A stretch of 64,000 nucleotides of DNA from Thermogemmatispora tikiterensis. GTDB taxonomy: Bacteria; Chloroflexota; Ktedonobacteria; Ktedonobacterales; Ktedonobacteraceae. The position numbers and the translations under genes were made by a program. The stretch lies in contig NZ_MCIF01000002.1 in assembly GCF_003268475.1 (NCBI RefSeq), forward strand, positions 2,901,382 through 2,965,381, read 5' to 3'. Position 1 is the first letter of the stretch. Each line of letters starts with the position of its first letter. Shown here one piece after another: positions 21,895 through 28,007 of the stretch. Below the pieces are notes generated by a model. The model saw nothing but the letters and a program-made list of their open reading frames with translations. It was not told the DNA's origin and ran no database searches.

Positions 21895-22962
21895 TCAAAG
21901 CAGGCCCTTGCTGACACATAGCTCCGCATTTAAAAGGGAGCCACCCGCCGCACCGCGGATGGTATTATGGCCCAGCACGACAAATTTATAGCTCAAGACG
22001 GGACAGGGACGCAGGCGCCCCAGAGTGACCGCCATTCCTCGACCCGCATCGCGATCAGGCAGTGTCTGTGGACGATCTTCCTCACGACGATAGATCAGCG
22101 GCGGCACGGGAGCGCTCGGCAGCTGCAGACGTTGAGGTTCAGGCAGGAAATGCTCCCAAGCTGCGATCACCTCTTCAGGCGAGGCCTGACGCTCCAGCTC
22201 GACACTCACGCATTCCAGATGGCCCTCGCGCGTGGCGATACGATTGCAATGCGCGCTCACGACCAATGGCGCCATGCTGAAACCACTCGCTTCGCGCCAC
22301 TCGCCCAGCATCTTGAGTGTCTCGCTCTCAACCTTCGGCTCTTCACCGGAGATGAAGGGAATGGCATTGTCGAGAATATCGTAGGAGGGTAGACCCGGAT
22401 AGCCAGCCCCCGAGATCGCCTGCAGCGTCGTCACCAGAACTTTGCGGATGCCAAAGGTTTGCTGCAAGGGCTTGAGCGCCATCACCAACGGGGTGGCCGA
22501 ACAATTGGGATTGGTCACAATGCAGCCGCTCCAGCCTCGGCGCTTGCGCTGCTCTTGGATGGCCAGGGCATGCTCAGCATTGACCTCGGGAACCAACAGC
22601 GGCACATCGGGCTCCATGCGATAGGTCTTGGCATTGCTAAAGACGGCCACGCCAGCCTGTGCAAAAGCGGCCTCGACCTCGCCGGCGACCTCAGCTGGCA
22701 GGGCCGAGAAGGCAATCTTGACCTCGGGTAGAGCTTCCGGGCGGCAAGGCAAGACCGGCAGGCGGGCCACCTGCTCGGGCAGGCTGCCACCAAGACGCCA
22801 GCGCGCTACCTCGCCATAGGGACGACCCCCGTGCACGTCAGAGGCCGCCAGGGCTACCAGCTCAAACCAGGGATGGCCTTGTAACAGCTCGATAAAGCGC
22901 TGACCTACCATGCCAGTCGCCCCGAGCACCGCCACCGGAAGACGTTGTTGTATCTGTTGCAT
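21895..22962 (-). CDS. asd: Aspartate-semialdehyde dehydrogenase
   Basis: Reduces aspartyl-4-phosphate to aspartate-4-semialdehyde with NADPH, the branch point to lysine, threonine and methionine. The N-terminal GATGMVGQRF binds cofactor; the catalytic Cys154 is in TNPNCSAT; SAHCNRIATREGH holds the active-site His. The motif GHNTIRGAAGGSLLNAEL places it in the archaeal/fungal-type ASADH group. AGGAGG lies 5 nt before a TTG at 22968 and 11 nt before ATG 22962, so the start is ambiguous by two codons. It is the last gene of the met operon, 57 bp after lysC. Confidence 0.95.
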   Translation of the reverse strand: MQQIQQRLPVAVLGATGMVGQRFIELLQGHPWFELVALAASDVHGGRPYGEVARWRLGGSLPEQVARLPVLPCRPEALPEVKIAFSALPAEVAGEVEAAFAQAGVAVFSNAKTYRMEPDVPLLVPEVNAEHALAIQEQRKRRGWSGCIVTNPNCSATPLVMALKPLQQTFGIRKVLVTTLQAISGAGYPGLPSYDILDNAIPFISGEEPKVESETLKMLGEWREASGFSMAPLVVSAHCNRIATREGHLECVSVELERQASPEEVIAAWEHFLPEPQRLQLPSAPVPPLIYRREEDRPQTLPDRDAGRGMAVTLGRLRPCPVLSYKFVVLGHNTIRGAAGGSLLNAELCVSKGLL

Positions 22963-23019
22963 TGTCAAGGCATCCTCCTTTGCCCACGCCTTCTACTCGT
23001 GCATCCTCTCTATCCCAGC

Positions 23020-24495
23020 CTAGCGGACCTTCAGCGCTTCCAGACGCTTTCCATGAGCTGGAGGGCGCACTAGAGGAATCACCGGCGCGATCAAATCGCG
23101 ATGGAGGCAGCGCAGAGCACGCTCGCTGTCGCCATCCTCAATGATGAGAATAATGCCCTGCTCGGAAGCGCCCTGGGAGATAATCGGAATGCGCTCGCGC
23201 GCGAGCGCGCTAATGGCGCGGGCTGGACTCATCGGATCGCTCGTGAAGCCGGAGCCGAGACAGGCACAGGCAGCCAGGCCTGGACGACAGCTGACACGCC
23301 AGTGCCCCAGGTCGTGCTGAAGCAAGGAGACGACCGAGGCCGCGGCCTGCTCTTCGACCATGAACGAGAGATGGTGGCCGGAAGAGGAGCAGATGGCCAC
23401 GGGGGCAGCTCCGACACGAGCCGCCAGGGCAAAGACCTGACCGGCGTTCTCGGGCGCACCAAACATGTTGGTACTCTCGACAGTCACCAGAGCCAGGCGT
23501 CGCCGAACGGTGATGGCCGTCGCGCCGCTGTGATACTTGCCCTCTGGTCCAATGAGTGTGCCCTGCATCTGGGGGCGGAAGGTGTTACGCACGCGCACGG
23601 GGATATTGCGCTGAGCTACCGGGATCAGAGTGCGCGGATGCAAGACTTTCGCGCCAAACCAGGAGAGACGCGCCGCCTCCGCATAGGTCAAGGCCGGCAG
23701 CAGACGCGCATTGGCGACGATACGCGGGTCGGCAGACATAACTCCGTCCACATCGGTATAGATAGCCACCTCGCCACAGTCAATGGCGGCCCCGATGACG
23801 GTCGCTGAATAGTCGGAGCCGTTGCGCCCCAGAGTTGTGACCAGCCCGGCACGCGTGCGACCGATGAAGCCCGGCACCACCGGTACCGTCCGTTCCTGGA
23901 GCAGTGGCTGGAGCAACAGCTGCGCATGCGCTCGCGTTTCCTCTTCCAGAGGCTCTGCACCAATGACAGCGCCCGGCTCGCTCGGCGCGCTGCCCTGCGG
24001 CTCTCCCGTTACAATGACCTCTTCCCGCACCGGGGCCGCTGTTACTCCCGGCAGGCCGAGGTCATTGATGGCGGCAGCCAGCAAGAGCACCGACAGGCGC
24101 TCCCCCCAGGCAGCCACTGCGTCAACATAGTCCTCGCAGCTAGCGGCTTCACGCTCCAGCCCGGCCAGTGCCTGCTCTAGAGCAGCCTTGAGCTCCGCCA
24201 GGCGCTTTCCATCATGGACAGCCTTCTCAGCGGCCTGAAGGTGTCGCTCACGTAGCGCCGCCAACTCGCGACGCCACTCGAGGCTCTCGCCCCGCCGGGC
24301 AAAATGGGCGATGCGCAGCAGCTGATCTGTAATGCCTGACATCGCTGAGACTACAACGACGGGAAAAGGTGCAGCCTCGTTGAGAGCTTTACTGGCTGTC
24401 TGAGCCACAATCTGAGCAACGCGGAGAATACGATCGCCACTGCCAACAGAGGTACCACCGAACTTTAGCACACAGAGCGAACACTCAACATCCAT
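23020..24495 (-). CDS. lysC: Aspartate kinase
   Basis: Phosphorylates aspartate, the first step towards lysine, threonine and methionine. The kinase core has VLKFGGTSVGSGDRI at the start (Lys11), GFIGRTRAGLVTTLGRNGSDYSA split over about residues 218-240, and YTDVDGVMSADPRI. Two ACT-type regulatory domains fill the C-terminal 170 residues, so feedback inhibition is likely. The 491-aa length is that of monofunctional enzymes with a long linker. ATG 24495 (GGGTGA 6 nt upstream) is preferred over TTG 24501. Its place in an operon with metX and metY and under a methionine-sensing leader suggests it supplies methionine precursor. Confidence 0.95.
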   Translation of the reverse strand: MDVECSLCVLKFGGTSVGSGDRILRVAQIVAQTASKALNEAAPFPVVVVSAMSGITDQLLRIAHFARRGESLEWRRELAALRERHLQAAEKAVHDGKRLAELKAALEQALAGLEREAASCEDYVDAVAAWGERLSVLLLAAAINDLGLPGVTAAPVREEVIVTGEPQGSAPSEPGAVIGAEPLEEETRAHAQLLLQPLLQERTVPVVPGFIGRTRAGLVTTLGRNGSDYSATVIGAAIDCGEVAIYTDVDGVMSADPRIVANARLLPALTYAEAARLSWFGAKVLHPRTLIPVAQRNIPVRVRNTFRPQMQGTLIGPEGKYHSGATAITVRRRLALVTVESTNMFGAPENAGQVFALAARVGAAPVAICSSSGHHLSFMVEEQAAASVVSLLQHDLGHWRVSCRPGLAACACLGSGFTSDPMSPARAISALARERIPIISQGASEQGIILIIEDGDSERALRCLHRDLIAPVIPLVRPPAHGKRLEALKVR

Positions 24496-24550
24496 TGACA
24501 ATCACCCTTTATCTCCCAGGCGAGACACCTCTTGCTTGTCTCGCTTCATT

Positions 24551-25906
<1,356 letters not shown>

Positions 25907-25997: not shown

Positions 25998-27146
25998 TCA
26001 GGTTTCCAGCCAGCGCAGAGCAGCGTTCATCTGCTCCCACTCTTTCAAGAAAGCATCATGGCCATGAGGAGAATCCAACTCGACATAGGTCGCCTCTCCC
26101 CCAAGCGCGCGAACACGCTCGGCCAGCCAGCGGACCCGCGCCGCCGGAAAGAGAAAATCGGAGCGAATGCCGATAAAGAGCGCGCGGCTGCGAATACGAG
26201 CAAGAGCCGTATCAAGAGAAGGGTAGCCCTCGCTGACATCGTAGAGATCCATCGCGCGGCTCAGATATAGATACGTATTGGCGTCGAAGCGCCGCACCAG
26301 GGAATTACCCTGATAATACAGATAATTCTCTACATCGAAGCGCTTCCCCAGACTTGGAGTGCGGGTCGGTGAAGGCACTTCACCAGCGCGAGCCGGGCGA
26401 CGGGAGAAGCGCAGCTCCATTGCCTCTTCACTCTGGTAGGTGATCATGCCAAGCATACGTGCGATGGCCAGACCGGCATCGGGTCCCTGACCGGGTGGAT
26501 AATCGCCGCCCTGCCAGCGCGGGTCCAGCATAATGGCCTGGCGCCCCACCTCGCTGAAAGCAATAGCCTGCGCTGTCAACGCCGCCGTCGCGGCCACCAC
26601 GATGACCTTCTCCACCAGCTCCGGGTAGCAAACTGCCCACTCCAGCGCCTGCTGTCCTCCGATCGAGCCGCCAGCCACAATCAAGCGCCGAATGCCCAGG
26701 TGCTCTATCAGGCGTCGCTGGGCATGGACCATATCACGGATCGTGACCAGCGGGAAACGCATGCCGTAGGGTCGCCCCGTGCTCGGATCGATCGACGAAG
26801 GACCAGTACTGCCATAGCAGCCGCCGAGCACGTTCGAGCAGACGACAAAGTAGCGCGATGTATCGAAGGGCCGGCCCGGGCCGATCAGCGGGTTCCACCA
26901 GGCGGCCTTCGGGTCGTCCGGGTGCTCAGGATCATGAGCATGCGAGCTGCCCGTCAGAGCATGGGTAATCAGGATGGCATTGTCGCCTGCCGCGTTGAGG
27001 CGCCCCCAGGTTTCGTACGCCAGCGTCACGGGGCCAAAACGGCCACCGTACTGAAGCGGCAACGAGTCAAAGGTATAGCTTTGCAAGTGATTCACAGGAG
27101 CAGGCTGTGTACCTGTCACCACGCTGTGCTCGACGCGAGCCACCAT
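25998..27146 (-). CDS. metX: Homoserine O-acetyltransferase
   Basis: Alpha/beta-hydrolase-fold enzyme that acetylates homoserine with acetyl-CoA, first committed step of methionine synthesis. The family blocks ILITHALTGSSHA, CSNVLGGCYGSTGPSS and RFPLVTIRDMV are present. The nucleophile Ser161 is in VAGGSIGGQQ, the Asp in IRSDFLFP, the His in SPHGHDAFL. Substrate choice (acetyl rather than succinyl) follows from pairing with metY. ATG 27146 has AAGGAG 7 nt upstream; a GTG two codons earlier is too close to that site. It is the first gene of the operon and is preceded by a tandem riboswitch leader. Confidence 0.95.
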   Translation of the reverse strand: MVARVEHSVVTGTQPAPVNHLQSYTFDSLPLQYGGRFGPVTLAYETWGRLNAAGDNAILITHALTGSSHAHDPEHPDDPKAAWWNPLIGPGRPFDTSRYFVVCSNVLGGCYGSTGPSSIDPSTGRPYGMRFPLVTIRDMVHAQRRLIEHLGIRRLIVAGGSIGGQQALEWAVCYPELVEKVIVVAATAALTAQAIAFSEVGRQAIMLDPRWQGGDYPPGQGPDAGLAIARMLGMITYQSEEAMELRFSRRPARAGEVPSPTRTPSLGKRFDVENYLYYQGNSLVRRFDANTYLYLSRAMDLYDVSEGYPSLDTALARIRSRALFIGIRSDFLFPAARVRWLAERVRALGGEATYVELDSPHGHDAFLKEWEQMNAALRWLET

Positions 27147-27174
27147 GTGCACACTCCTTGCAACGAAAAGGGAA

Positions 27175-27207
27175 CAAAAAAACCCTCACCCTACCCAGGG
27201 GCGAGGG
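27175..27207 (-). terminator. T-box-controlled intrinsic terminator before metX
   Basis: On the minus strand CCCTCGCCC (27207-27199) pairs with GGGTGAGGG (27191-27183, one G-U pair), followed by seven T (27182-27176). It lies directly after the T-box sequence and 29 nt before the metX start. Confidence 0.93.
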
Positions 27208-27610
27208 ACAGTCTCTTCGCGGTACCACCCTGTTTTGCCAGCGCCTCACGACGCTGACCTTGGAGTGTTGCCAAGCCGCAGGTCCCCAGGCTCAACCATG
27301 ACCTTGTATCAGAGCGCAGCCCAACTCAGGCGGCTTCCTTTCTCTGGCTGCTCTTGGCCCGGCTCAGATCTCAGCCGTCTGGCTGACCGACCGAACCATC
27401 TGAGGCAGGGTCTTGCCCAGGATGCAGCTCGCTCGCAACACTGCAGCCTGTAACGGAGCCACCCGGCACAGTCTACTCGCCCGCCTGCCCAAGGCGGACC
27501 TTCAACCTGCAACTCGGAGGGCATTTTCAACGCCGCCGCAGCGCCGGCATCTCAGCGCCGCCGACTCTCTGTAGCCGCACACGACGTCTACTCGTCCTCG
27601 TCAACGTTAT
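27175..27610 (-). promoter_or_regulatory. T-box leader with AUG (methionine) specifier
   Basis: T-box RNAs bind uncharged tRNA and switch a terminator to an antiterminator. Read 5' to 3' on the minus strand: stem I with GAGTAGACG (27592-27584) and CAGAGAGTCGG, then GAAAATGCCC, in which ATG at 27524-27522 sits where the specifier codon belongs. The conserved GAGTAG...CCGG...CCGTTAC middle segment follows (27478-27450), then AGGGTGGTACCGCG (27231-27218) and the terminator. The bulge UGGU would pair with an ACCA tRNA end, so discriminator base A, as expected for tRNA-Met. The exact 5' limit of stem I is an estimate. Confidence 0.92.
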
Positions 27611-27675
27611 TCTCGATTCGATTGACCGCTAGACGACTGGTGAGCACACTCGTACCCGCCCGGTACGCGGGGCAA

Positions 27676-27703
27676 GAAAAAACCCCTTTTCGTGAAAAGG
27701 GGT
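27676..27703 (-). terminator. SAM-I riboswitch terminator
   Basis: Minus-strand ACCCCTTTT (27703-27695) pairs with AAAAGGGGT (27690-27682) around a 4-nt loop, followed by a run of six T. It lies 25 nt past the SAM-I aptamer and upstream of the T-box. Confidence 0.93.
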
Positions 27704-27840
27704 CTTTAGCATCATTGCCAGGTTCCCCTCATCTTGCGGAACAGTGTTCCGCCGGAATTGGCACCTTGCCAGCAGCTCTGCTGGCGGGTTGCCGGGCTTC
27801 ACAGGGCCGTCTCCCTCCACCCGTCTTGATGAGAGCGCTA
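27676..27840 (-). promoter_or_regulatory. SAM-I (S-box) riboswitch
   Basis: The aptamer (27833-27728, minus strand) shows every core block of the class: CTCATCAAGA (P1 and kink-turn), GGTGGAGGGA, GGCCCTGTGAAGCCCGGCAA, a P3 stem CCAGCAG/CTGCTGG, AAGGTGCCAATTCC, a P4 stem GGCGGAAC/GTTCCGC, and AAGATGAG closing P1. A terminator follows at 27703-27676. S-adenosylmethionine binding should stabilise P1 and allow that terminator to form, shutting off the met operon. Confidence 0.95.
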
Positions 27841-27883
27841 ACCGCGTCGGTTCAATTGTTCGGGTACATTATAGTTGTTAGTT

Positions 27884-27912
27884 AGTATAGCGGAGATGGC
27901 TGGAGCTGTCAA
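27884..27912 (-). promoter_or_regulatory. Promoter of the metX-metY-lysC-asd operon
   Basis: Minus strand TTGACA (27912-27907), 17-nt spacer, TATACT (27889-27884). The start point should lie near 27877, about 44 nt before the SAM-I aptamer, so the leader is about 730 nt. A second TATAAT at 27873-27868 has no good -35. Confidence 0.85.
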
Positions 27913-28007
27913 GGGTCAGCATGGCAATGGTTGTTCCACGGCCTGGTCGCTTCTCAACTACGTCAGGCTGCTTGCCACCTGGACGGAGGAGAGCAGGCCA
28001 GGTCAGC

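Follow-up and report, generated by a model that had tools for sequence, protein, structure and literature searches.

Among the described systems, the closest to the metX leader of the heat-loving Chloroflexota bacterium Thermogemmatispora tikiterensis is the set of SAM-I/T box-Met tandems reported by Sherlock et al. (2022, RNA Biol, PMC9481103), which precede "specifically metX and metY" and are called NOT A AND B gates, the mechanism there being a prediction. Seven examples are given in a table and two in the text, and the main text leaves the organisms unnamed. The first-pass annotation of our window (the whole stretch of 64,000 nucleotides that was analysed) had suspected that the tandem before metX was novel; this part of its reading has to be given up, since the published account, in its main text, already holds the same two elements in the same order, the same genes metX and metY, and the same predicted logic. 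Therefore, we present the finding as a confirmed, well-conserved case of a published tandem. Compared with the tandems as that main text describes them, the operon studied here extends to lysC and asd as well, and our comparison follows the arrangement throughout a class. Our literature search found no experiment on a SAM-I/T box-Met tandem.

Other known leaders share some of these features. One other known tandem takes the same two inputs as the metX leader, but in the reverse order. In Xanthomonas campestris, the expression platform of a SAM-I riboswitch also binds uncharged initiator tRNA (PMC7270179), and SAM and uncharged tRNA-Met are likewise integrated ahead of met genes; however, this is a single element acting by translational control, with no T-box, and tRNA binding relieves repression instead of forming a second gate in series. 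The met leader of S. aureus also places a tRNA-Met T-box ahead of methionine genes, but there the T-box replaces the S-box and is not combined with one (PMC3771891). In Bacillota, contiguous T-box and SAM riboswitches occur in mixed arrangements, e.g., before ssuABC in 8% of the contiguous cases, yet they concern other genes in another phylum, and metX is absent from the main text of that report (PMC12452182). What our analysis adds is the class-wide conservation of the tandem, the repeated loss of its T-box with terminator relics left behind, and a second occurrence, in another Chloroflexota class, before a threonine-synthase-like gene.

The metX leader and its two RNA elements

The leader lies on the minus strand and runs from a promoter-like site through a SAM-I aptamer, a terminator, a T-box, and a second terminator to metX. 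This gene (homoserine O-acetyltransferase; 25998-27146, minus strand; NCBIfam NF001209, 454 bits against a cut-off of 331) starts with an ATG at 27146, with AAGGAG at 27159-27154. On the same strand stand metY, coding for O-acetylhomoserine sulfhydrylase, i.e., homocysteine synthase (24551-25876; NCBIfam NF006096, 753.6 bits, cut-off 726), lysC for aspartate kinase (23020-24501; TIGR00657, 339.2 bits, cut-off 208.7), and asd for aspartate-semialdehyde dehydrogenase (21895-22968; NF006416, 464.9 bits, cut-off 232). A scan for terminator-like sites between these genes found none, and all four are presumably co-transcribed. Upstream of both RNA elements, the promoter-like site TTGACA-N17-TATACT (27884-27912, minus strand) matches the consensus at 11 of 12 positions and is the sole sigma-70-type match in 27100-28000, where the consensus scan expected 0.2. 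The consensus scan also gave two terminator-like sites, 27701-27683 and 27207-27183 (0.7 expected), both of which are present in most relatives.

The SAM-I aptamer (27726-27835, minus strand) matched all 108 positions of the Rfam model RF00162, whose gathering score is 44.4, at 81.3 bits and with an E value of 1.4e-17 over the whole window, and the SAM region folds 3.9 standard deviations below shuffled sequences. Its expression platform (27683-27730, minus strand) was delimited by the terminator scan, the fold, and the like layout in related leaders, most of which are arranged in this way. GAGGGG (27730-27725), the 3' strand of P1, is complementary to CCCCUUUU (27702-27695), which forms the 5' arm of the terminator at 27701-27683, and a T run follows the terminator. 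Judged by this complementarity, P1 strand, antiterminator, and terminator can pair in exchange with one another.

Elsewhere in the genome, a second SAM-I aptamer (L017:1501-1623; G000:C2:1791130-1791252) stands ahead of metK and downstream of an ahcY-like gene, both genes being named by eye. It stands alone, without a T-box, as would be expected if the T-box were reserved for methionine synthesis rather than SAM synthesis. This agrees with a division of tasks, metK answering to SAM alone and the methionine pathway to SAM and tRNA-Met together.

The T-box leader (27194-27613, minus strand), with Stem I, Stem III, and antiterminator, was matched full length by RF00230 (all 219 model positions, 1-219) at 75.3 bits, with E values of 2.5e-16 in a 901-base stretch and 3.8e-16 in the whole genome, though it stays below the Rfam cut-off of 93, which is a curation threshold and not a biological feature. 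Only two of the 13 substantial T-box matches in the genome reach that value, the T-boxes ahead of proS, trpS, valS, and argG also falling short of it, and relatives of the metX T-box reach 97-106 bits. Because most T-boxes of the genome fall below the cut-off, we consider it too strict for this lineage. A chance match is ruled out by the genome-wide E value together with the conservation of the T-box in 28 other leaders; in addition, the T-box region folds 2.7 standard deviations below shuffled sequences.

The specifier loop reads GAA-A-AUG-C-CC (27528-27519), and the AUG (Met) codon itself (27522-27524, minus strand) was located from its position in the Rfam alignment, from 29 leaders, and from the genome's other T-boxes. 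In these, the corresponding loop position holds CUC (leuS), UCC (serS), CCC (proS), UGG (trpS), GUC (valS), and CGC (argG), these genes being named by eye from their translations; since the other T-boxes give the expected codons there, AUG is the codon expected for a methionine gene. The specifier reading AAU was also considered and is ruled out, for AUG is constant while its flanking bases vary, and its position agrees with that of the codon in the other T-boxes.

Rfam pairing gives the antiterminator as AGGG-UGGUACC-GCGA ... UCGC-CCCU (27197-27231, minus strand), with the T-box bulge UGGU (27224-27227, minus strand) complementary to the 3'-ACCA of tRNA; in the tRNA-Met genes detected here the discriminator base is A, which fits the pairing of bulge and ACCA end. 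The antiterminator, AGGGUGGUACCGCGA...UCGCCCCU, overlaps the second terminator hairpin (27183-27207, minus strand), which was found by the terminator scan and is followed by seven T, and UCGCCCCU is common to both structures. The leader thus has the UGGN bulge of a T-box, set in an antiterminator that cannot form together with the terminator. The arms of this terminator show compensated changes in relatives, e.g., CCCUC/GAGGG here and CCUCUCG/CGAGAGG in G014. A GC-rich insertion lies between Stem III and the antiterminator (27250-27400 of the window) and is long in Thermogemmatispora, where the bulge stands about 520-640 nucleotides from the SAM-I start, as against about 415 in G045 and G046.

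Among the other T-boxes of this genome, the one ahead of leuS, outside the window, merits a separate study. The most surprising sight was a complete tRNA-Ala(GGC) gene (2714549-2714622) within the leuS T-box (G000:C2:2714317-2714700; L001:1501-1884), between Stem III and antiterminator. According to a DNA search the genome has no other tRNA-Ala(GGC), and tRNA-Ala(CGC) lies just upstream of the same T-box. Within the family 26 loci share this nested order, as does one genome of a sister family (L134-L159, L161); 13 of the nested loci were tested with Rfam, and in each of them the T-box enclosed the tRNA. When the leader is transcribed, the tRNA would be produced with it, and tRNA processing would cut the leuS T-box in two; our literature search found no description of a tRNA gene nested in a leuS T-box. 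There are, furthermore, two tandem T-boxes (L003 and L004; G000:C2:2681735-2682510) whose specifiers both read AAG (Lys); the gene after them was named by eye as a RimK/LysX-like ATP-grasp gene. Among L010/L014 and L013/L015, again by eye, there is one case of a T-box, apparently with the specifier AUC (Ile), ahead of an AlaX-like tRNA-editing gene, and a second case of a T-box before argC with the specifier CCC, not an Arg codon.

Conservation and loss of the T-box

Our sample comprised 47 genomes of Ktedonobacteria, with relatives from Thermogemmatispora (close), Ktedonosporobacter, and further members of the class; SAM-I was present in 43 of them, and 75 SAM-I loci were inspected for their downstream content. 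SAM-I stands ahead of metX in 34 genomes of the class, this one included, and a T-box follows it, in the same order, in 29 of the 34 metX leaders, which represent 14 genera and two families (26 T-boxes confirmed by Rfam and three by motif and specifier alone). The AUG specifier is found in every one of the 29 (28 match GAA-N-AUG by pattern, and G009 was read by eye), and the bases on either side of it vary.

In five SAM-I metX leaders the T-box has been lost wholly or in part, and most of these keep the T-box terminator as a relic. The whole sensing part is gone and the terminator still present in G020, G029, and G030 (L058, L092, and L090); G013 (L087) shows a partial T-box relic with a partial terminator, and G011 (L095) has kept antiterminator and terminator without Stem I. 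The Rfam T-box search gave no match in any of these five leaders. Terminators of the relatives were parsed automatically, except for a few (e.g., G009, G013, and G030) that were read by eye. On the MetX protein tree, the presence or absence of the T-box needs four changes, at least three of them forced by well-supported branches, and the count of losses is approximate as the tree is poorly resolved in places. The simplest reading would be an ancestral tandem in the class, followed by repeated loss of the T-box.

No SAM-T-box-metX leader occurred among 40 SAM-I loci sampled from other Chloroflexota. The same sample contained two SAM-T-box-thrC-like loci, and a follow-up search added a third. 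The series of SAM-I, a T-box with AUG, and a threonine synthase gene was seen in G140, G182, and G225, all from one family of another Chloroflexota class (loci of the series: L186, L187, L215, L232, and L233); the threonine synthase was named by NCBIfam, and the T-box was confirmed by Rfam in G140 and G182 and recognised by motif in G225. In other members of that class SAM-I stands ahead of the same kind of gene without the T-box motif. The methionine-type control by SAM-I and T-box suggests a possible role of the threonine-synthase-like enzyme in the methionine branch.

A predicted two-input gate

We consider it highly probable that the leader attenuates transcription in two serial steps and lets the polymerase through only at low SAM and with tRNA-Met uncharged. 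RNA polymerase would start just past the promoter, at about 27880. When SAM is plentiful, it would bind the aptamer, P1 would hold GAGGGG, and the first terminator would form; when SAM is scarce, GAGGGG would pair with the terminator's 5' arm, and the polymerase would go on into the T-box. There, uncharged tRNA-Met would pair at two places, through its CAU anticodon with the specifier AUG and through its ACCA end with UGGU in the bulge, which would stabilise the antiterminator and allow metX-metY-lysC-asd to be transcribed, and with charged tRNA-Met the second terminator would form. With two attenuators in series, high output would be expected only for NOT SAM AND uncharged tRNA-Met. Ligand binding by the two elements, and the switching itself, we infer from sequence.

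Novelty apart, the first-pass annotation has held up well. The leader it had outlined was borne out on the minus strand in its position and in all its parts: both covariance models found their element, the order SAM-I before T-box is backed by these models and by a comparison with leaders from 33 relatives, and the methionine specificity agrees with the internal check on the other T-boxes as well as with 28 other leaders. A single promoter ahead of both elements also accords with our scan, and the AND logic of low SAM and high uncharged tRNA-Met stands as a prediction, the same one as in PMC9481103.

One refinement of this reading, not an alternative to it, is that the T-box senses initiator tRNA only and would report the capacity for translation initiation rather than methionine in general. 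The met T-box of S. aureus does prefer initiator tRNA (PMC3771891), and of the three tRNA-Met genes detected here, two look by eye like initiators, given their C1-A72 mismatch and GGG/CCC anticodon stem; however, initiator and elongator tRNA-Met both carry CAU and the discriminator A, and no sequence test here separates the two. Sensing as narrow as this seems to us somewhat unlikely.

An unseen internal promoter, on the other hand, would produce a T-box-only message, placing the elements on different transcripts and rendering the logic conditional. Internal promoters are reported, in the main text of PMC9481103, for adenine/T box-Tyr tandems of clostridia. However, a consensus scan of this leader and 33 others, using a sigma-70-type model in a class that may use others, found one weak promoter-like site between SAM-I and T-box, in G019, and none in 28 of the 29 tandem leaders, this one among them, and a promoter-like site lies upstream, at the equivalent place, ahead of nearly all related metX leaders, all of which makes such a message very improbable. 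Weaker still is the view that the T-box is a decaying remnant and the SAM-I riboswitch the sole regulator, which can draw on the several losses in relatives and on the score below the Rfam cut-off, but which we hardly credit given that the T-box has its specifier, bulge, antiterminator, and terminator intact, that these parts are conserved in the leaders of two families, that relatives score up to 106 bits, and that clear remnants look quite unlike this T-box.

Serial attenuation by SAM-I and T-box is, then, our reading of the leader. The T-box input is nevertheless dispensable, since four relatives have SAM-I without a recognisable T-box. Where a handful of predicted cases had made this tandem RNA gate known, it is seen here to be a stable, class-wide trait, and with intact, partly lost, and lost versions standing before the same gene, the worth of the second input becomes directly measurable. 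More tentatively, and as a scenario that is possible without being the one we would expect, the SAM-then-tRNA-Met gate may be ancestral to Ktedonobacteria and either of second origin or far older before the thrC-like gene of another Chloroflexota class, several lineages may have dropped the tRNA sensor and kept the terminator as a fixed brake, and the thrC-like enzyme may belong to the methionine branch. If true, this would provide a natural series showing how tandem RNA gates get built and dismantled.
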